Shown: positions 11,448-63,420 of the stretch, piece after piece | Layout: the number at the start of each line of letters is the position of its first letter | How positions within the stretch are numbered: position 1 is the first letter of the stretch | From: Galaxea fascicularis | Taxonomy: Eukaryota; Cnidaria; Anthozoa; Scleractinia; Euphylliidae | Reading direction: 5' to 3' | DNA length: 64,000 bases | NCBI GenBank assembly: GCA_948470475.1 | Contig: OX419345.1 | Location: 16,222,670 to 16,286,669 of the forward strand | Position numbers and translations under genes: made by a program | Notes under the pieces: model-generated | The model's input: only the letters and a program-made list of their open reading frames with translations | What the model was told of the DNA's origin: nothing | Databases searched by the model: none

Positions 11448-14400
11448 CTAGTCAATGTATGTGCCATTGGTGAGGCCATTTGTCAAGCTGTCCTCTTCTA
11501 GTAACTCCTTCAGCATTTTAATGCACATGTGGAGGCAGCGTGGTACGTGAAAACAACCTGTGAAATATGAGAAACAGTTACTGTGCGCATGGCGTAAATC
11601 ACAACAAAAGCTGGTGTCAACCATAGAAGGCATTTTTCCAGATTGAAGCTTGATTGTTAAATTTGGCTTCATAGGCTCTTTGGACCATTCCACTGACTTG
11701 TACGGTAAATGTATACATATTATTACCTTTGAATGGTCCACCTTTGAACGTATGTGTAACTTCTCCTTTCTGATTGAGGTAACCAAACCACTCTCCATAC
11801 TTGGGATCAGAAAACTGGGCGTGGAAAGAATAGATACAGATATTATGTACAATTATTACTCCAAGTAATTCGCAAAAAGATCAGTGAAGTGCTTCAACGG
11901 ACTGTGGAGCGTTATTATCCTGAACGTCTTTAAGTGATTGTAAATGACGATCTTGAAATTTGGTGGGAGAACTTGTGGGGTGTTGCGTGGAAAACTGTCT
12001 ATAAATATTCCAGAAAACTAGAACAATGTTTTCTTTTTTCTTGTTTCCCTGGCATAGCATTGTTACATTTATCAACAATCACATGCAAAATTATGAATCA
12101 GTGTATTGCATGTATGGAGATATTTTGCAATACTGAAATCGTTAATAATTTGGTAATTTCGCATTTCCTGAACAAATGTCCCTGAAGATGCATAATAACT
12201 CGGCCTTGTGGCTGCATCGTTCGAGGCGAGCTTTTTTCTTAATTATAGCTATTTTTTTTCACTAAATTTTAAAATAAATTTAACCAAAACAAAATTATTG
12301 TTTACACGTTTGGAAGCGAAACAGAGAGGGACGGACTAGGAATTGAAGAACTTCCTGAGGGGGTCTGAAGAAATTTCCAGAGTATCAACGACCCCTTTTC
12401 AAGAGGGTTTACAATATTATTGAAGTCATACTCTGCGACCACTTACATGTGAGAATGTGTACTGGAACACAAGATCAAACTTCTCTATAAAGCGATCATC
12501 TCTGGTCTCCTTGTACGCCATAAGGAATGCTATAAGAGCCTCGGCATGCGGCCACCACAGTTTCATATTCCACTCCAGTTGGGTCGGAGAGTGACCATTG
12601 GCGTCCAGCATATAGATGATGCCGCCATACATATCATCCCATCCAATCTCAAATGACTGAACTATGAACTTATCTATGGCGATCCTTGCCAACTCGTAGT
12701 TCTGCTTTCTAGTGGCGTATTGGAGAAGGAACCATCCTGCTTCGATGGCGTGACCAGGATTGATGAGTCGCCCCTCGGCACCCTTTATTTCTTTGCCGTC
12801 GTCGGAGACTTTTTCCAGTACAACTCTTCCGCTTCTCTGAGAAAGAATTGGAGACCGATTGTGATGGGTAAACACAATAAATAGAAAAGGAAAAGAAAGG
12901 ACAGGAAAAATCTAGCTTACTAAAAAGAGAAAGGAAGAAAAGGAAATGGAAATTGAAAAAAATGTAAAGGAAAATATGGCAAACAAAACGCAGAAAGTAG
13001 AGAAAAGACAAAGAAAGAAAAATATATAGAATGCCCAAAAGGAAGTGACGCCGACGCAAGGTCCGTTACATTTCTATCGCGTTAACAGGTGGGTGATACC
13101 CTTCCATAGTCTTTCACTGGTAACGCGTAACAATTGACGAAAATGAACGACGTAAGGATTGAACTATTGAAATAAATGTTACTTTCAAAACTTGTACAAA
13201 ACATTGAATGTTAATAACGCATCCTTCAATATGGCATATTACTATGATTAATCTTGTTTGGTCGCAGTTGCCAAAGCATCGATAATACTGGGCGCATTAT
13301 ATTTACCTGCAGGTGTTTTAAAATCTGTTGCACTGCCCACTCTTCATCTTCACTGTACGTCTGATGAAGAGCCTTGTCATCCCGACAGACTTCATCAATC
13401 ACGTACAGCAGCATCATGGGTACTGCAATAGGATTTGCTTCTTCTTGACCTGACAGCTTGGGTCGACCCAACTGTGTGTCATCAATACGTGCCCAGTGAG
13501 TTACCATAGATAACATCTGAAGGGCTTCTTCCTGAAAAAGGTTACAGGTATTACACTAGCAGCTAAAACAAGGAAGTCAAAGAACAATAGAAGAAGGAGA
13601 AGACGATGATATTGTTCATGATGGTGGTGGTGGTGGTGATGATAATGATAATGATGATGATGATGATAATGATGATGATGATGATGATAATGACGATGAT
13701 TATGATGATAATGATGATGATAATGATGATGATTATGATTATGATAATGATGATGATGATGATTATGATATTGACGACGATGAGTATACCCTGAAAATGA
13801 CGCTTTTTTTGTTTATTTGCTTGGTTTTTCATAGGTGGTGATATCAACAACGTGAAAACAATGCACTTGCAAATTTATGAAAAAGTAAATAGGAGATGGT
13901 ATCATAACCTCTTTTTAAACCCCCACTACTCTGCTACTTCAAACCTATGTATTCGAGTAACTGTTCGTGCTAGAATTTATCACCGGAGAGGCTGTGAATG
14001 CCAGCTGTTCCACCCCTATTTACACACACAAAATCATAGTTAAGAGGGCATGTAATCCCAAACCAGAGGTACGTAAAAATGTACTACTCCGACGTAACAT
14101 TTCGCACCTTGTACTTGGACAGATTGCTCGCTCTCGCCAGTTCAGCCATTGCCAGAACATAGAAGCATTCAGTGAAGAGAGTTCTCTGAATCTTGATTGG
14201 CTGCCCGTCAGCTGTTACTTGAAAGTAACATCTGCCGTCTTCCGGCCTCTTTATATGGTTGAGAAGGAATTCACCCCCTAAAGGACCGAAAAATCAATAT
14301 TTGTGTGAAAGAGAAGTCATGTCGGTATTCCATCTTAGCATTAAGTTGCCAGGGTAGTGACAAGATGCGAATCGAGTAAGTGTCCTGGAGTCTTGATGGG

Positions 14401-25917: not shown

Positions 25918-27395
25918 GATCAACCCTTGGACCACTATTATTTCTTCTTTACATAAATGATCTTCCTAACTCTTCAGACGTGCTTTACTTTCGACTTTTT
26001 GCTGATGATGCTAATATCTTCTATGCTACTAAAACATCAAAAGATCTTGAGGCAGTTATGAACTCAGAACTTGGGAAAGTAATTAACTATTGCAATCTCA
26101 ATAAGCTGTCTATTAACATGAGGAAAACAAACGTTATGATAAGAACATCTCCACAGAAGCCAGCTATACACAATATTAATATTTTAAACATTGAACGCAA
26201 AACTAGTATCAAATATTTAGGCATTTATTTAGATGAGCACTTGAACTGGAAAACTCAAATAGCACATGTACAGGGCAAATTGACTAAAAACCTTGGAATC
26301 CTCTACCAACTACGGAATTACCTGAACTTAAAGATGTTAAGACAATTGTATTATGCACTTATTTACCCTTATCTTAATTACGGTGCAATGTGTTGGGGCA
26401 ACAATTATCAGACTAATTTAAATAAGATATGTACTAAGCAAAATAAGTGTATACGTAGTATTTTTTTTGCAAACAAACATGAGCCCTCTTTACCATATTA
26501 TCAAATCTTTGTTCTAAAATTTGAAAACATTGTTAAATTCAAAGTCTGCTCACTGGCATTTAAATTATTTAACAATCCATCAACTGTTCCAGCAATCTTC
26601 CATAACGTTTTAACACCTAGAACAACTGTCCACTCTTATAACACCAGAAATTCCGCTAAGCTTAATTTTTACCGACCAAAAGTTAGAACTAACATAGGTA
26701 AATTTACTTTTAAGTACTCTGCTTCTGTCATGTGGGAAGCTGTCCCCTTGGCATTAAAAGAACTAAAAACATTTTATAAGTTTAAGAAACTTTATAAGGC
26801 CCACTTGATCTCTTGTCAATCAAATAATATATGCTCTGTTTAATGGTCAATTATATAGTATGTAACTATCTAATAATGATAATAGAATTAAAAATAATAA
26901 TAATTGTGCATGTCTGCTTATATTTTTGCCTCTGTGGTCGCTGCTGCTGCTGCTAATGATGATGTGTTGTTCTTTTCTTTTTGCTTTGCTTGTTGCTGTT
27001 GCTGTTATTGTTGGTTGTTTGTCTGTATGTTCCTTGTTTTTGTTTTGTTTTTTCCCCTTTTGCTAAGCTTCATTCTGTTTAGATTTCTCGCTTGGTTCAG
27101 TATACCTCTAACGTGTTCAATTTATATACATGTTATTTTTTTCTGTACATTAGTCCTAGGCTCTACAAACGTTTCCTATTATATCTCAGTTAAGCTCAGT
27201 GTCATTTCTTTGTTTACTTAAAAGTAGATGGTGGTCAACTAGAAAGCTTTCGCGGCTACTTTGACCACCATACACATTTTATAACCTGTTACTACTGTAA
27301 TTACTTATCAAATAATCATGTGTTGTAAATATACTTTTCTTCCTATGTTAATTTTATGTAAATAGTGTGAATAAAGGAACCTTGAACCTTGAACT
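25918..27395 (+). mobile_element. 5'-truncated LINE (CR1/L2/Rex-type) with partial reverse transcriptase
   Basis: An open frame from 25920 to the stop at 26843 starts inside the RT domain (STLGPLLFLLYINDLP) and runs through the catalytic FADD box (LFADDANIFYAT), KYLGIYLDEHLNWK and the thumb region ALIYPYLNYGAMCWG to the end of ORF2. The codon before the first Ser is TGA, marking the truncation. The 3' UTR runs to 27395 and ends in the short tandem CCTTGAACCTTGAAC. The RT frame has no stop or frameshift over 300 codons, so the insertion is fairly young. It lacks endonuclease and 5' RT motifs, so it is not autonomous. Confidence 0.9.
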
Positions 27396-34830: not shown

Positions 34831-49465
<14,635 letters not shown>

Positions 49466-55018: not shown

Positions 55019-58000
55019 TCATTTCCCAAGCTTTAACAATAACTTGGGGTGGTGTAAACTAATTAGAGTCCTCAGATCTTCAATAACCTCCTCCATGTTC
55101 GGCCTCCCGTCAGGCTCTTCCTTTACACAGTGCTGTACGAGCTCTCGAAAATGGCGGTTTATAATCTGGGCAATTTGCATTTTTCGCTCCTGTGGATCTG
55201 GTTCTTGCCTGATGCTCATTTCACACAGAAGTACCCCAAAACTGTAAACATCAACCTAATGACAGAAGTATTATAAATCAGTGTTATGTTAATACTTTAA
55301 GATGCCAGAAAATTAAGAGTTCACATCAAATAAAAACAATGCTGTTTAATTTTTCGATTTTAAAAAAGTTTCAGTTGAGTACGTTTTGGTCAGGAAAGTG
55401 GGTTACAATTCGAATATCTGGCTACTTAAATTCTTGATAATTGTTTAATGTTTGACAAGATATACAAATCTTTTTTTTTAACCCAGGCCACCAAAATGAG
55501 CGAGTTAAGAAATTTCCAAAACTCTTCAATTTCGTAAACATATTCATGTCTATCTTAGAAGTCAAATTTGATTTCAGGTTAATTTTGATTTAACCAAGCC
55601 TGAAATCAGTCAGAAGTAAAAGTTCACTTTGAGTCTATAAAGTTTGTGGATTGCCTACAGTTATTTTGGCCGAATTCGTGTTTTCATTGTTTGTTCTTGC
55701 TTTTCTATTTGTTTCAGTACCTGACTATCTTGTCATCCAACACGTACATGATGAGGACAGATAGTAACATCTATTGTTTAAGGTATATTTTAACATGTGG
55801 GTAAGATTTGAACTCTGTCAAGCATTCAATAGAATATAATAAGACATTTCGTTTGTTCTCGTGTTTGGTGAGCGATGTTTTGCGCGTTTGGACAGATGCT
55901 AAAAACATGTTTGCGCGCATCCGTGCTGAGTCCGATTCGTTTGATACGCTAAGTGTAGCGTCACGTGCTCGTTTCCTTCAAGATGGCGAGAGACGAGGAC
56001 GATTTAGTCCATCTTTCCCCAGAAAATGTTTAACATAATATTGAAGATTAGAAAAGGAAATAAAGATCTATTTGAAGAAAGCGCCTGTCTATGGGAGAAT
56101 GGATAAGCGTGACAAAGCTTATGAAAAAATTCAAGAAGAACTGGACATATTTTTTGCTTCTGGAGATTAATACTTGTTTTGATAAAACATTTTTAAAACA
56201 TGCTTTAGCACGGGTTATTGGAAAACATTTACCATTTGGACCGTCCTTTATACGCCAGAGGAAGCCTGTCATACCCATCTGTTCTTTGTAAGCGCGTGAT
56301 TTACTGTTGATCGGTATAATAAAGGCAATATTTTGCCTTTAGCGAGAGTCAACTAAGATACTAACCTTACAGCTAATTGGTTGAGGTGGGTCTTTAGTTA
56401 GGAGCTCTGGTGCACGGTACCGGACCTCATTTACCGAGCTCTTACGCACAAAATTCATGGTTTCATAGCCCGACACTTTTGCTCTCCATTGCTCGTTACG
56501 TTGCCATAGCAGCACTTTACCACTACTGATGTTATGGTGGATGATGGGCAAGGGCTTCTGATGCAGATAATTGAGTGCTTGGGCTACATCAAGAGAAATA
56601 ACAAACACGTCCTCTTCTGTGAGGCTAAGATGCACTCTTTGGTATTCAAGGTGCAGTCTTGTTTTCAAACTGCAGTCGTGCTCCATGAGCTCCGTTACGA
56701 ACAACGGAGGCTGATCATCAGCAGTCGCTCCAATAAACTCTAACAGACAAGGATGGTGACATTTTGAGGCAATGTCTGCTTGTCGCTCGAAGAACCCCCT
56801 TGTATCATCAGGCAGACGTACTGGGAGCATTTGTTTCACAGCGACATCACGACCACGGAATCGTCCCCGATATACTAGTCCCCAGGCTCCTTTCGAGAGC
56901 AGCAAACTTGTATCAAACTGAATTTCATCCCTATGAATGATCCAGTTGCGTGGATATTTTGTTTGCAACTGACTCTGAAATTGACTGACACCTTGTTCTC
57001 GCTGTTTTAATGGCTGCAGTAGTCTTTTTTGGCGTTCCGTCGTTGTTTCCAATTCCTTTTCTCTTCCTCGTAACAGACTTTCCTCTTGATGACCTCGTGG
57101 TTGTTGCTGCCTCAATAACTCTCTATGTCGATAAACTTCCTTTGTCGTTTCACTCTTTGTTTCGGATTCTCGTTTCACTCTATGTTTCCAAATCTTGCTC
57201 TCCAATTTTTGTTGCAGTTCATGAACTTGTTCTTGATATTCTATCAGCCGTATTTCACTTGCTTCCAGATCTTGTACTCTTGTTCGCAACTGACTTTGCA
57301 GTTCATTAACATGTTCTTGTTGTTGCTCGGATAGCTTTTGCTGCAGTTTATAAGGTAGTTTTTGTTCTTTTAATAGCTCTCCTTGTTCTTGATATTCTCT
57401 TACCCGTGTTTTTGTTGCTTCCAGATCTTGTTTTCTTGCTCCCAACCGAACGTGCAGTTCACGAACTTGTTCTTCATATTCTCTCAGCCGTCTTGCTGTT
57501 GCTTCCAGATCTTGCTCTCTTGTTTGCAACTGACTTTCCAGTTCATGGACATGTTCTTGTTCTTGTTCTGATAGCTGTTCTTGCAGTTCATAAATTTGTT
57601 GTTGTTTTTCTTTTAATAACCTTTCTTGTTCTTTTTGTTCTCTCGGCCGTTTTTTTGTTGTATCCAGATCTTGTTCTCTCGTTCGCAACTGACTCTGCAG
57701 TCGATGAACTTGTTCTTTATATTTTATGAGCAGGATTCTCGTTTCTATCAGATTGCGCTGATTTGCGTTGAATAGAATTTGTAGGTTATGATGAACTCGT
57801 TGCTGTTCTTTTAAGAGTTGTTCTTGTCCTTGATATTCGTTTAGTTCTTTCCTCGTTGTTTCCAATTCTTCTTTCATCGTTCGTAACTGACTTCGCAGTT
57901 CAGTGACGGGGATTTGTTCTTGTCGTAACAGTTCTCGTTCTTGACGTTCATCTAGTTGTTCCCTCATCGTTTCCGGTTGTTTATTCTCTGTTTCAAAGTG

Positions 58001-61000
58001 AATTTGTACTTTTGTAGCTGGGTTTTGTTCTTGTGTTAATTGTTCTTCTTGTCCTTGCTGTTCATTAATTTGTTTCTTTGTTAATTGTAGTTCATTTTCC
58101 TCTGTCTGCAACTGATTAAATCCACCAGGAGCTAGCGCCTTAGTGTCCGTTGAACCTTGAGAAAACATTTGAAGATTTCAATTGAAGTAAAAAAAAAAAA
58201 ACTACTTTTCTTTTAGTTTTTCTGGGGGAAGTACACAATATCCCTACGTCAATAGATGTTCTAAATTTTTAGGAAGGATTCTAGAAAAAATAATGAAACA
58301 CAGATCACACCAAATCCGATTTTAGGGACCCCTTTCGTTTACGGCTACTGACGTTTTACCATTTTCTTGATTTTAATCTTAGTGGGAACTTCTGCTAAGA
58401 CCTATACGAGAAATCCTTCCGTCAAGGATTGAGCTCCGTCCTTTGTTTTGCTTTTTTTTTGTTTTCAAATTTCCAATGCTACGTAAAAAGCTTGGTCGGT
58501 GATTTTGAGTTCACGTCATCGGAGTCTTCTAAAGAGGGAAGAAGCCTTCTCCATCGTCGGTGAGATTTGAACTCACTACCGTTGGATTTACCTGTATGGC
58601 CAAGTATAGTGCAGGACTAATATAAATAATCCTTCAATTTTGGCATGATCGAATTTTCTCCCTGACTGCTTTGCATTTTGCTTCTATCGTAGGGAAGCCC
58701 AGACGCTTAAAAACGAAGGGGCGTCCAGATAAAAACATATATTAATCAAACAACACACATGCAATACAGAATTTGTTTTAAAACTTCAGGAACCTCTTAC
58801 ATTTCACATCCGCATGTTGAGTCACTGGTTCAGGCTCCTCAACTAACTGGGTCTGAGTTTCATCAGTCGTTTGATCCTCGTCGCTCTCTGTGAATATCAA
58901 CACAAACCAACGATTTTGTCTCTGAAGAATTTTGATCATATCTGGTACTTTCTAGAGACCCATTGATAAATATTAGCAAGCTTACACAAGAAGTGTCCTG
59001 TCTTCCCCCTTCGAATTCCTCCCAAAGTAGAACCTCCCTTGATAACGTTGGCCAACAAAAAAAACCACTCTTTTCCGTATCTCCACCTTTATTGAAAGTG
59101 GTCAATGCTTGTCGCGCGCGGCTCCCAGTATCTTTATTTAATCTAAGGTTGGTAGGCATTTTGTTGACCTCCGCTTACCGCGTGTCATGGCACACATGCA
59201 TTTTTAACGATAATCCTTGAGACATCGGTCCCAACTGAACAATAGGGCGGAGTTTAAGCAGCGACTACCGCAACGGCAACGGCAACGGCAACGAGAACGC
59301 CACAAAACAACGGGTTTAATGAGCAAGCAGAATGAGTTTTTCAGTGCGTTAGGAAATTTGTACATCTCATCACCGTCCTCTGCTAAACAGCAACACGTGA
59401 AATGACCAGATTTACTGAAGTTTTGACGAGTGCACGTGAACACTTGGCGTTGAATTTTTCTATCTCTTTGTCAACTGTAACACCGTTCCCACCACTTCAT
59501 AGTTACAAGTTGAACTCGATGGAATAACCTCGAATTGGTTACAATGCCTCTGGTAAAAAATTCAAATGACTCTTCGTTGGCGTTGCCACAGTCTTTGCTA
59601 AACTCCCCAATAGCCCATTTTAAAGTTGTGTGTTCAGTGACCTGGCCTTTCAGTAGAAGCGAGGCTGGAGGTGACCTTATTTTGATACAAACCTCTGTCT
59701 TTCTCGCGTGCAAATGCAGACTAGTTAGCATAACAACATGATTTACATGAGGAAATCAGTGAGGTCTGCATCAAAACAAGGTCACCCCCAGCCTCGCTTT
59801 TACTCAAAGGCCAGGTCACTCTACACACAACTGTAAAATGGGCTATTAGTTGACGGCAAAAGAATATATGTACTGTATTAAAGAATGTCAAAGAAACACC
59901 TTCGCTTGCCGTGTACTCACGTGGAAAGCTTGTGAGAAACAGTTTGCAGGCCAGGTAGTCTACTATTCTGATAGTTGTCTGTAGCTTTACAGAAACCACG
60001 TGAAATTCCCTTTTAATGTCGTCTGTTAAAAGGCGTTTCTCGGCTTCTGCGTTTAGGTTTCCAGAACGATAATCTTTCCAAAGACCCTCGAGGACTTCTA
60101 GCGTTTTGCATTTGACTGTAACCCTTAAACTTCTCTCGGTCACATGTGCAACTTCTAAATCACGCGTTTTGGTTAAATAGCCATAAAGCGTCTTAGCCAG
60201 GTTGCCAAGTGTCCTAGTTGGGTTAACAAAGTTCGTTTTCATCTCATGCATAAGGCATTCTGGATCTCCCGATTTTCCCTCCTGAAAGATGGCACTCTTA
60301 AGTTTAAAATTCACTGGCAAAGAACCTAGAAAAAAGATATTTAAGCATCGTCTAGTTACGTTGGTCTTGAAATAATTGCACCTTACCAACGCAAGGTACG
60401 TAGTAGGTTCAAACTTCGGCCCAGATCATAAATCAGGTTCCTAACGCGGCTGGTAAGATAATTCTGGCTGTGTGGTCAAAATCTATCTTGAATTCACGTG
60501 ATGTTAAGCCACCACGATTAGCCTTGTCTCCTTTGCCTCCAAACGTAAAAGAACCTATACACATTGATTGCAAAGAGAAGGGAGCTTACTGAGTTCGCGC
60601 TGCTGTGGTCTATCCTCGCTTACAGTTAATGATGGCTACACAGAGGCTGGGCGAGTTGCTGACCACCAGCTCCCTGGGAAAGCTTCATGGCTTCATGGTT
60701 AGAGAAACCAACAGTCATAGTACACAACCAACAGAAATTGTATAAATATGCGATCATTTTAATGCCAGTTAAAATTTCCCGGGTCATGGCTTACGATCGA
60801 CGAAGCTCGTGTAGGAAATCGTGATTCCAGGCAATTGCAGTGGTTCGACTGAGATCAATTTATTTGATCTTTCTTATTGAATCAATTCCACTGTCTAAAA
60901 GTTATCCATGGAGACTTAATGATTTTTCGATTGTATTGCTTGCAATCCTCTGCGATGACACTATAGAAACACAACGCTACGAGATCATTTCCGTCATCGT

Positions 61001-61263
61001 ATTGCACGTTCTGAAGGAGGTCTGTGAAACCGTTTCATCAGTGCTCCAAGAGAAATTTGAAAGAGCAATAGCCGAACAGTCACAACGAATTTCACTGAGA
61101 TCACTACCCTCTTCCTTTAGCAGATGTAACAGCCCGAGGTCATAAAAATGAGATTTTAAAATTGAAAGGTATATACCTGAACGACGCTCGTCCATACCTT
61201 CAGGACCTTCAGTTTCTTGAGACGTCCTATGCTGTGTTGAGGACTGACATCCGATAGAGGCAT
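55019..61263 (-). CDS. TRADD-N-like domain, coiled-coil, pseudokinase protein
   Basis: Exons, transcript order: 61263..61177, 60325..59921, 58887..58801, 58155..56366, 55255..55019 (TGA). All borders are GT-AG with continuous phases. Exon 2 carries a TRADD-N-like (DED/DD-superfamily adaptor) signature: SLRVTVKCKTLEVLEGLWKD, YRSGNLN, LLTDDIKREF, TTIRIVDYLACKLFL. Exon 3 is an acidic linker. Exon 4 starts with about 390 residues of Glu/Gln-rich coiled coil in internal repeats (REQDLEATKxRLREYEEQV). The TKL/RIPK-like kinase N-lobe keeps a Gly-rich loop and VAVK lysine, but HRD reads HHN and DFG reads SGY; the last exon supplies DVYSFGVLLCEM and GRPNMEEVI. This is probably a non-catalytic signalling scaffold in innate immunity or cell death (inference). 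Exon 1 needs one base from an upstream exon. The best donor is inside the glycosyltransferase exon at 61654; alternatively translation starts at ATG 61195 (MDERRSG). Confidence 0.8.
59268..59298. repeat. (AACGGC)n short tandem repeat
   Basis: Four GGCAAC units (CAACGGCAACGGCAACGG) inside a repeat-like intronic stretch between the TRADD-N exon and the acidic linker exon. Confidence 0.85.
59609..59847. mobile_element. 239-bp fold-back MITE
   Basis: AATAGCCCATTTTAAAGTTG at 59609 pairs with CAACTGTAAAATGGGCTATT ending 59847. GTGACCTGGCCTTT, AAGCGAGGCTGG and GGTGACCTT recur inverted in the right arm, so the arms are about 95 bp. It lies between the TRADD-N exon and the linker exon. Confidence 0.9.
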
Positions 61264-61621
61264 CTATCCGGCAAAATGTAAATTAAGCAAGTTTGAAACG
61301 CCATTCATATATCAAATTGGGGATGACCACATCATTAGCCAGGGAGAGACAACTCTCTACAACAAGTCGTCTTCAAGCTAATCTCAAACTGAAAGGTGTT
61401 GATTTACCAAGCACTGATGAAAGGGAGATTATTGGCGAAGTTTGCCTGTTAATAATTAACATTTTAGGTGAATGTGAAGATATAAAATGATATATCTCAC
61501 TTTTTCCGGGTTATTTACTGAGGCTGCTTAAGATTTTTAAGGTAAGTTGGTCAGGAAACATCACACAGTACACTGGTCAAATAACCCGTGTAAAAACAGT
61601 ATAAATAGAAAAGTGACAAAG

Positions 61622-63420
61622 TCAAAGATCAAACTTAGAAGGAACATGCCCACCTTGAAACATTTTGACCATCTCTCTGATGACTTCCTTACTTTGTTTC
61701 TCCCAACTGTACTTCTTTTCGTAGAAATTGCGCAGTGCTTCAAATTCTTCAAGCCGCTGACTCCTGTCTTTGCCCTTGAGTTTCTTAATCATCTTTGCCC
61801 ATTCTTGGACTACTTGGGCATCGTCACAGGCGTCTCCTGAATCAATCACAAAATGTGAACCAAATGGAACTTTGATTAAAGCTTCTCCAAACCCTGTGTT
61901 TGGACTAACGAGGACTGGTAAACCGGCTGACAGGGCTTCAAGTCCTGTCACACCAAATCCGTCTGTCCGCGCAGGCATAACTGCTAAATCAACTTCGCAA
62001 AGCAACTCATTCAAACTTTCTCGGTTCTTCAACGTGCTTCTTACAGTCAGGTTCTTCGCTGATATCTTATACTCCAAAAATTTCATTTTTATATCATTTT
62101 CGTTTCCTTCCGCACCAACAAAGACAAGATGAGATTTACTTAATGCAGCAGCTTCTGCTGCATTAAGCTAGTGCAAGCTAGTACAGCTAGTGCAAGTGTA
62201 CTGTAGTATTGTACGATCTGTACTAGAATATGCTTGCCCTGTGTGGGCAGCTCTGCCTAAGTACTTAGATGACGCTATAGAATCTGTACAAAAAAGGGCC
62301 CTGCGCATCATTCTGCCGAACTGTCACTATGACGAAGCCCTAATTCAATCTGACATCACTGCCCTTTCCCAAAGAAGGGAAGAAGCTTGCATAAATTTTA
62401 TCAAGCGTGATTGCCGTTCGTCTCCTGTCCTTAAGCCATTAATTCCTCGCGTGTCAATTGACAGGCCGTACTGCCTCCGATCAGGCGAACGTGTTCCGGT
62501 GCGCTTTGTCCCCAAGACAAAGCGTTTCGCAGATTTCTGCACCATTAAGTATCAAGACCAGTTGTAATCCTTTTCTCTGTTATGTTTTCTCTGTTATTTG
62601 TGCTTTAATCATAGTTATATCATTATTTATCTGACTGTCTTTATACCGTAGTGTCTTGTGCTATTGTCACTGACCATCCTTGTAATTCAGCCTTTTAGGC
62701 TGCGAGAGGGATATCAATAAACTATTATTATTATTATTCTGCTGCAATGTCACATCCTTGCAATGAAAAATCTTTTTTGTCACCTCGGCCTCTAAGAAGA
62801 ACCCGGAACTTACTTCCCTCTCCAGGAACCTGATGAACTTTAGAAACGTCCTGCAAAATTCCAGGAGTAAACTCAAAGATCGTTTTTTTGCATGACCGAA
62901 GATAAGCGCGAAAATCCTCAGCCAACTTGGGTCCAACAGTGAGGACAAGGTCAGCTTCTTTGCAAAGCGCCACTTCGTCTACATGTTCCATTTTACTCTT
63001 CGAAAGTAAGTCAGGATCTTCCCTAAACATTCCAATTTCTTCTGAGTTTTTGTGAACAACCTGAATCCACTTACAATTGCGCTCATCCCTTATGGATTGC
63101 GCTTGGGGACCAAGGTCGACATCGTGACCAACAACAACGTCAATATGTAGATCAGTAGGTGGAGAGATAAGCCACTCAAGCTCATTCATGCCTGACCGCC
63201 GTTCTGCATTGATAAGATCAATATTGTGGGAAAGAGCTTCTTCCTTCTCCTTATCACTGCACTGAGGAACAAAGAAAGTCACATCTGCCTCGGCGCACTT
63301 CGCTAAGTTGATAGCCAGTTCTCTGTTGATAGTAGACAGTCCTCGTTTTCTTGAACTCCATTCATAGCCCAAAATAAGAACTTTCAATTTGCCTGGAAGT
63401 AGCACGGAGCCCGCTGCCAT
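61622..63420 (-). CDS. Glycosyltransferase family 4-like (GT-B) exon, interrupted by LINE insertion
   Basis: ATG 63420 (MAAGSVLLPGKLKVLILGYE; good Kozak context, in-frame TGA shortly upstream) opens 228 codons ending DIAAE, then TAA inside the inserted LINE. Beyond the insert the same frame resumes at 62152 (AAALSKSHLVFVGAEGNEND) and runs to TGA 61622. The first half is a Rossmann-like acceptor domain (RELAINLAKC, CKWIQVVHKNSEEIG, ADLVLTVGPKLAEDFRAYL, FTPGIL). The second half is a GT4 donor domain with MPARTDGFGVTGLEALSAGL, a D-x7-E version of the usual E-x7-E motif, and GLPVLVSPNTGFGEAL. Such domains transfer sugar from a nucleotide-sugar; substrate unknown. Deleting 584 bp (insert plus one target repeat) restores one frame. 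The donor CAAG|GTGGGC at 61654 is in phase with the TRADD-N-side exon at 61263, so this may be the N-terminal part of that protein. Confidence 0.85.
62153..62746 (+). mobile_element. Recent 5'-truncated LINE insertion with 10-bp TSD
   Basis: The insert 62163..62736 (574 bp) is flanked by the exact direct repeat TTCTGCTGCA at 62153-62162 and 62737-62746. It encodes an open RT C-terminal tail to TAA at 62567 (SIVRSVLEYACPVWAALPKY, ESVQKRALRIILP, VPVRFVPKTKRFADF), typical of CR1/L2-like LINEs. It ends in CAATAAACTATTATTATTATTA, a microsatellite 3' end. It is antisense to the host exon. Confidence 0.95.

Follow-up and report, generated by a model that had tools for sequence, protein, structure and literature searches.

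The 64,000-nucleotide stretch of Galaxea fascicularis DNA analysed here (contig OX419345.1, G000:C11:16222670-16286669; hereafter the window) contains on its minus strand a row of exons that encode a glycosyltransferase (GT) domain of the GT4-conflict family, a TRADD-N domain, a coiled coil and a kinase-like domain. We think it fairly probable that a single gene, a member of the coral GT4-TRADD-N immune family, occupies the region; in it, the coil and a pseudokinase probably follow the TRADD-N part, and a very recent insertion has broken the GT. Searches of the coral's own genome covered the 416.6 Mb assembly (170 contigs). The features in question are the following:

62734..63420, minus strand: N-terminal half of the GT4-conflict exon, from ATG 63420 to a TAA borne by the insert (PF20706, 2.3e-42, profile positions 3-219 of 385)
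62163..62736, plus strand: insert resembling a long interspersed nuclear element (LINE), 5'-truncated, with a TAA-repeat tail and flanked by the 10-bp TGCAGCAGAA; at least 40 copies in the genome, 18 of the 40 listed being identical over 536 bp
61654..62162, minus strand: C-terminal half of the GT4-conflict exon, starting with the second copy of the target duplication and ending at CAAG/GTGGGC (PF20706, 6.6e-25, profile positions 232-384)
61177..61263, minus strand: linker exon (DASIGCQSST...), phase 1 to phase 1, containing the alternative start ATG 61195
59921..60325, minus strand: TRADD-N exon (PF20694, 1.4e-5; model pLDDT 83; conserved serine)
58801..58887, minus strand: acidic linker exon, matching proteins P0002-P0005 right after TRADD-N (E about 1e-7)
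56366..58155, minus strand: coiled-coil exon with most of the putative pseudokinase (open frame, splice phase; PF07714, 3.7e-27); possible separate start at ATG 58168
55019..55255, minus strand: last exon, with the end of the putative pseudokinase and the stop (phase-0 junction, open frame)

The GT exon frame starts at ATG 63420 and reaches the donor CAAG/GTGGGC (last exon base 61654) in phase 1, and the acceptor GGATAG/ATGCC opens the exon 61263-61177, the first two bases of which complete the codon left by that donor, both as claimed in the original prediction. The exons 60325-59921, 58887-58801, 58155-56366 and 55255-55019 follow in frame with GT/AG splice sites up to the TGA that ends at 55019, and the junctions after the disputed one (61654/61263) are three times phase 1 and finally phase 0. 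A product of about 1,262 amino acids (aa) had also been claimed; the exons after the GT do encode 868 aa, but the 394-aa GT part tacitly skips an insert of about 574 bases with stops. The predicted GT, TRADD-N-like and kinase-like domains are likewise recovered with Pfam (PF20706, PF20694 and PF07714 all match), with the qualification that the insert, which breaks the GT frame, had been overlooked.

The join between the GT and TRADD-N parts is best judged from proteins of other species. A search with the C-terminal GT half plus TRADD-N, restricted to proteins 0.55 to 1.75 times as long as a 1,034-aa query and sharing exact words with it, gave 101 proteins; all those bearing an organism name are from corals. 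Both Pfam domains occur together in 14 of them, from seven genera (four proteins from Oculina, three each from Stylophora and Acropora and one each from Pocillopora, Orbicella, Montipora and Porites), so that homologues joining the two domains, the lack of which would have spoken against the original prediction, do exist. The residues across the disputed junction (MVKMFQ/DASIGCQSST) match MVNMTHDASVSCLSST of the Oculina proteins P0002 and P0003 (E 0.002 among 211 proteins), the acidic exon finds its counterpart in P0002-P0005 within the same set, and in the alignment the Oculina proteins carry both linker exons in order. A similar short cysteine linker behind the GT was detected by script in 10 of the 101 proteins, eight of which have both domains. 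The protein P0001 of Stylophora pistillata, named Stimulator of interferon genes protein in its source, has predicted GT4, TRADD-N, PH and STING domains.

The coral's own genome points in the same direction. PF20706 gave 61 matches, a number in which one locus can count several times, and PF20694 gave 34 when matches up to E 10 were taken. Nine of these 34 TRADD-N matches, the window's included, have a GT4-conflict match no more than 4.1 kb upstream on the same strand, where uniform scatter with 50 GT loci would predict 0.008 such pairs, a figure that ignores tandem clustering and treats as independent nine pairs that are not. Four of the nine paired TRADD-N matches fall below the Pfam cut-off, yet match the TRADD-N of the window at E 2e-16 to 1e-34. 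The phase-1 donor of the GT exon recurs in 13 distinct other loci out of the 61 matches, at the identical aligned position in 12 and one codon later in one (C9d and L001 gave no match, and L007 and C5b are one locus); for six of these loci the reading covered the GT exon. Moreover, pairwise identities among the nine loci are correlated between a 150-aa GT part and TRADD-N (r 0.81; 0 of 5000 permutations), as expected under joint inheritance. The paired loci, the shared donor, the 14 joined homologues, the linker matches and the correlated identities together make it likely, at the level of sequence comparison, that GT4, linker, TRADD-N and acidic linker form one gene, and for this join paralogues and homologues lead us to prefer the predicted single gene over two adjacent ones. 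Other GT4-TRADD-N loci in the genome (L017-L032) seem by eye to have different ends, with ankyrin-like, LRR-like (leucine-rich repeat), ZU5-like and helicase/zinc-finger-like frames, some stretches being N.

The PF20694 (TRADD-like_N) match of the TRADD-N exon scores 25.2 bits against a cut-off of 23.7 and is confined to positions 25-56 of the 69-position profile. Of five AlphaFold2 models, the best has a mean predicted local distance difference test score (pLDDT) of 83.1 (the other four range from 63.8 to 77.5) and shows the order strand-helix-strand-strand-helix-strand, plus extra helices. A serine that is invariant across a 10-sequence alignment, S65, lies between predicted strands 2 and 3 (56-62 and 66-72). 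The modelled fold and this serine fit the fold resembling the RNA recognition motif, with a conserved serine, that is described for TRADD-N in PMC7159879. Fold searches with the model (Foldseek, VIA-align) returned ferredoxin-like folds, with no clear relative and no TRADD-N chain among the matches listed, an absence to which no weight is given. When the exon sequence was compared with those of solved structures, three weak matches to unrelated proteins came up (the best, a viral envelope core, at E 0.009), which were taken as chance. In the intron 3' of this exon, an inverted repeat (59609-59847; 107-nt arms, 83% complementary, 25 nt apart) resembles a small DNA transposon.

The GT frame is open on both sides of the insert and hits a TAA at 62736-62734, borne by the element (62736-62163) that parts the two halves. 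The 10-bp target duplication occupies 62746-62737 and 62162-62153. Together with the simple-repeat tail and many near-identical copies, this duplication is a trait of LINE or non-LTR (long terminal repeat) elements, and the 131-aa plus-strand frame of the insert resembles by eye the end of a non-LTR reverse transcriptase, without giving a Pfam match. A query of 62200-62735 found at least 40 places in the genome, and 18 of those 40 (the window copy included) are identical across 536 bp; the insertion is therefore very recent. It may be private to this haplotype, in which the GT end is probably lost, and it probably stops this allele from making the proposed GT4 fusion protein. Identity among at least 18 of its 536-bp copies in this genome shows that the transposable-element family itself has been active very recently.

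Run separately against Pfam, the N-terminal and C-terminal GT halves score 145.8 and 88.3 bits, beyond the curated PF20706 cut-off of 26 bits. By sequence the window GT is a GT4-conflict relative, an assignment with which we do not claim an active enzyme. The E-x7-E motif and the lysine of the LKG that follows GRGD are conserved active-site-like positions of the GT4-conflict family. The window has D-x7-E, with D at that place in 5 of 95 homologue instances, and Q instead of the LKG lysine, which is K in 80 of 84 instances (the patterns matched 91 and 82 of the 101 homologues for E-x7-E and GRGD..LKG, respectively, the remainder being uncounted). These two altered positions and the interrupted exon make an active GT in the window copy unlikely. 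The dN/dS values (non-synonymous over synonymous divergence) of the two halves against the paralogue C5b, 0.30/1.18 (about 0.25) and 0.35/1.68 (about 0.21), are below 1 and indicate past constraint.

Active eukaryotic protein kinases are marked by the VAxK lysine and the aspartates of HRD and DFG. The kinase domain of the window retains VAVK and has HHN and SGY in place of the two aspartate motifs, for which reason we call it a pseudokinase; judged by these motifs, it looks catalytically dead. A search for kinase homologues, under the same limits of length and shared words and kept at E up to 1e-20, gave 110 matches, of which one lists TRADD-N and none GT4. Motif patterns matched 107 of the 110 proteins and yielded 110 domains, 100 with both aspartate motifs and 10 lacking at least one, two of these lacking both. 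The acceptor of the coil exon fits phase 1 after the acidic exon, and a protein of Oculina patagonica (P0113) has the predicted order HEPN-TRADD-N-coil-kinase and is thus a precedent for the layout. By splice phase and by analogy with P0113, the kinase part is probably joined to the GT4-TRADD-N part. Within the coil exon, 56959-57893 holds related repeated segments, with copies 84 to 216 nt apart, and the length of the coil may differ between alleles.

A number of observations weigh against a single gene with a GT broken only recently. The window donor GTGGGC is the weakest-looking when set beside the paralogue donors, and a poor pyrimidine tract precedes the acceptor at 61263. A pattern scan of the introns of seven paralogues (C9d left out) found no convincing counterpart of the linker exon, so that this exon is supported by proteins of other species and not by paralogues from the same genome. 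The nearest paralogue varies slightly by part (C5b, 61%, for TRADD-N; C3a, 57%, and C5b, 55%, for the C-terminal GT part), no kinase domain occurs in the 14 GT4-TRADD-N homologues, none of the 211 proteins shows the junction between acidic exon and coil, and the GT may, from its two altered motif positions, already have been dead before the insertion. In a two-gene layout, GT4 would be encoded by one gene that stops at TGA 61622, and TRADD-N, coil and kinase by a second whose start codon is ATG 61195. This layout would agree with a GT frame that continues past the weak donor to that TGA, with an ATG in frame with the downstream exons and with the 87 of 101 homologues that lack the domain pair, many GT4 proteins being without TRADD-N. 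We nevertheless regard it as very unlikely, given the donor position common to 13 other loci, the joined homologues, the match of linker residues ahead of ATG 61195 to Oculina proteins, the nine neighbouring GT4/TRADD-N pairs and the correlated similarities of the two domains. A split further down, which would end a GT4-TRADD-N gene after 58801 and start a coil-pseudokinase gene from ATG 58168 or from an unseen exon, is unlikely as well, if less so: donor and acceptor are compatible in phase 1, P0113 is a predicted protein that has TRADD-N, coil and kinase together, and between the acidic and coil exons no stop or end was identified, save by leaving the splice unused. It does have on its side the in-frame ATG just ahead of the coil exon (frame NLQMFSQG), the absence of the acidic exon-coil junction from the homologues and the abundance of coil-kinase proteins without TRADD-N (109 of the 110 kinase matches by Pfam).

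The other two alternatives concern the state of the GT. If the insert served as an intron, a near-complete GT would still be made and our reading would suffer; on paper, in-frame phase-1 donors (intron starts at 62753, 62783 and 62813) and acceptors (exon starts at 62157, 62154 and 62151) do flank the insert, each pair at the cost of GT residues. However, the best donor-like site (62813, GTAAGT) would delete the GRGD strand, and the donors 62753 and 62783 are weak and paired with a poor acceptor tract. Given also how young the insert is, there is little chance that a GT is rescued in this way. The whole locus might also be a dying copy, in which the weak donor, the altered GT and kinase motifs and the insertion are all signs of decay. 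This is possible but doubtful, as all exon frames are open apart from the insert, the GT halves were constrained relative to a paralogue, and catalytic loss also occurs in relatives, as in the 10 kinase domains without at least one motif. We retain the reading of one GT4-TRADD-N gene, probably with the coil and pseudokinase, that was recently interrupted.

The architecture had been predicted to be unusual, which holds for part of it. GT4 before TRADD-N has been published for cnidarians, cephalochordates and hemichordates (Kaur et al. 2021, PMC8195603; DEDD2-like clade), a source that also reports over 500 GT4 paralogues in Acropora digitifera, LRRs after TRADD-N in cnidarian GT4-TRADD-N proteins, retrotransposons close to these genes and, for the sponge Amphimedon, TRADD-N followed by S/T/Y kinases, and that proposes that retrotransposons reshape TRADD-N genes. 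The full join of GT4, TRADD-N, coil and kinase was found in neither the GT/TRADD-N nor the kinase homologue set, and no protein with GT4, TRADD-N and kinase was encountered in these two sets or the literature searched, although the supplementary architecture tables of PMC8195603, outside that scope, may list one. The window shares with the published metazoan proteins a GT4 placed, in the predicted gene, right before TRADD-N (a model strongly backed by comparison, but with an interrupted GT exon), an expanded cnidarian family, variable ends and nearby retrotransposons; it differs in having a coil and pseudokinase where theirs have LRRs after TRADD-N and in the recent insertion in its GT exon. 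In Acropora, the GT domain is found with NACHT, LRR, tetratricopeptide repeats (TPR) and ankyrin (PMC12314368). Coral glycosyl-transferase-group-1 proteins with NACHT/LRR, TPR or ankyrin (PMC12314368, PMC8260672) have the same kind of GT and are expanded in coral genomes, but the term 'tradd' does not occur in the main texts of these two papers, whereas the window has TRADD-N. Cnidarian coil-kinase proteins (such as P0113, P0142 and P0143) have the kinase family and the coil-then-kinase layout in common with the window; most of these relatives (100 of 110 domains) keep both aspartate motifs, of which the window has neither. P0053 and P0081 of Montipora capricornis combine, like the window, a GT4-conflict N-terminus with a kinase-like C-terminus, but have no TRADD-N match. 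P0053 has 154 member sequences and, by eye, the catalytic motifs HRN and GDN, and would be a second pseudokinase linked to GT4. What remains new here is the pseudokinase-ended GT4-TRADD-N combination with its fresh insertion.

Elsewhere in the window lie a GlcNAc 2-epimerase exon, a reverse transcriptase and two BCAS3 exons (12426-12911, 25920-26843, 34831-35541 and 37845-38366, respectively).

We infer that, when transcribed, an intact allele would splice the GT4 exon in phase 1 via the short linker exon to the TRADD-N exon, the acidic linker exon and probably the coil and pseudokinase, which would occupy the site where relatives bear LRRs, ankyrins, TPRs or STING. The coil may assemble copies of the protein together, TRADD-N may act as an adaptor or switch, as PMC8195603 proposes, the pseudokinase could be a non-catalytic sensor or scaffold that binds a partner or nucleotide, and GT4 would be the effector, glycosylating an invader or a host target. 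In the present allele the very recent LINE-like insertion cuts the C-terminal Rossmann half of the GT. Most likely, no functional GT4 fusion arises from this allele; if it yields a product today, a truncated GT or a GT-less TRADD-N-coil-pseudokinase protein of about 845 aa from ATG 61195 would be the likeliest. A bolder view, to which we give scant credence, is a four-part immune adaptor in which GT4 and kinase are arranged about a TRADD-N switch and, having both lost catalysis, serve as folded sensors or decoys, while a mobile retrotransposon toggles the sugar-transferase end between alleles of one coral population.

At this locus, automated gene models may pass over the insert or break the gene in two. 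If our reading is true, the coral GT4-TRADD-N immune proteins would gain a variant that ends in a pseudokinase, and the locus would illustrate how such ends can be exchanged, the phase-1 introns making the modules interchangeable. Similarly, a very young retrotransposon caught interrupting a GT4-TRADD-N gene would be a concrete case to set beside the proposal of PMC8195603 that retrotransposons reshape TRADD-N genes.

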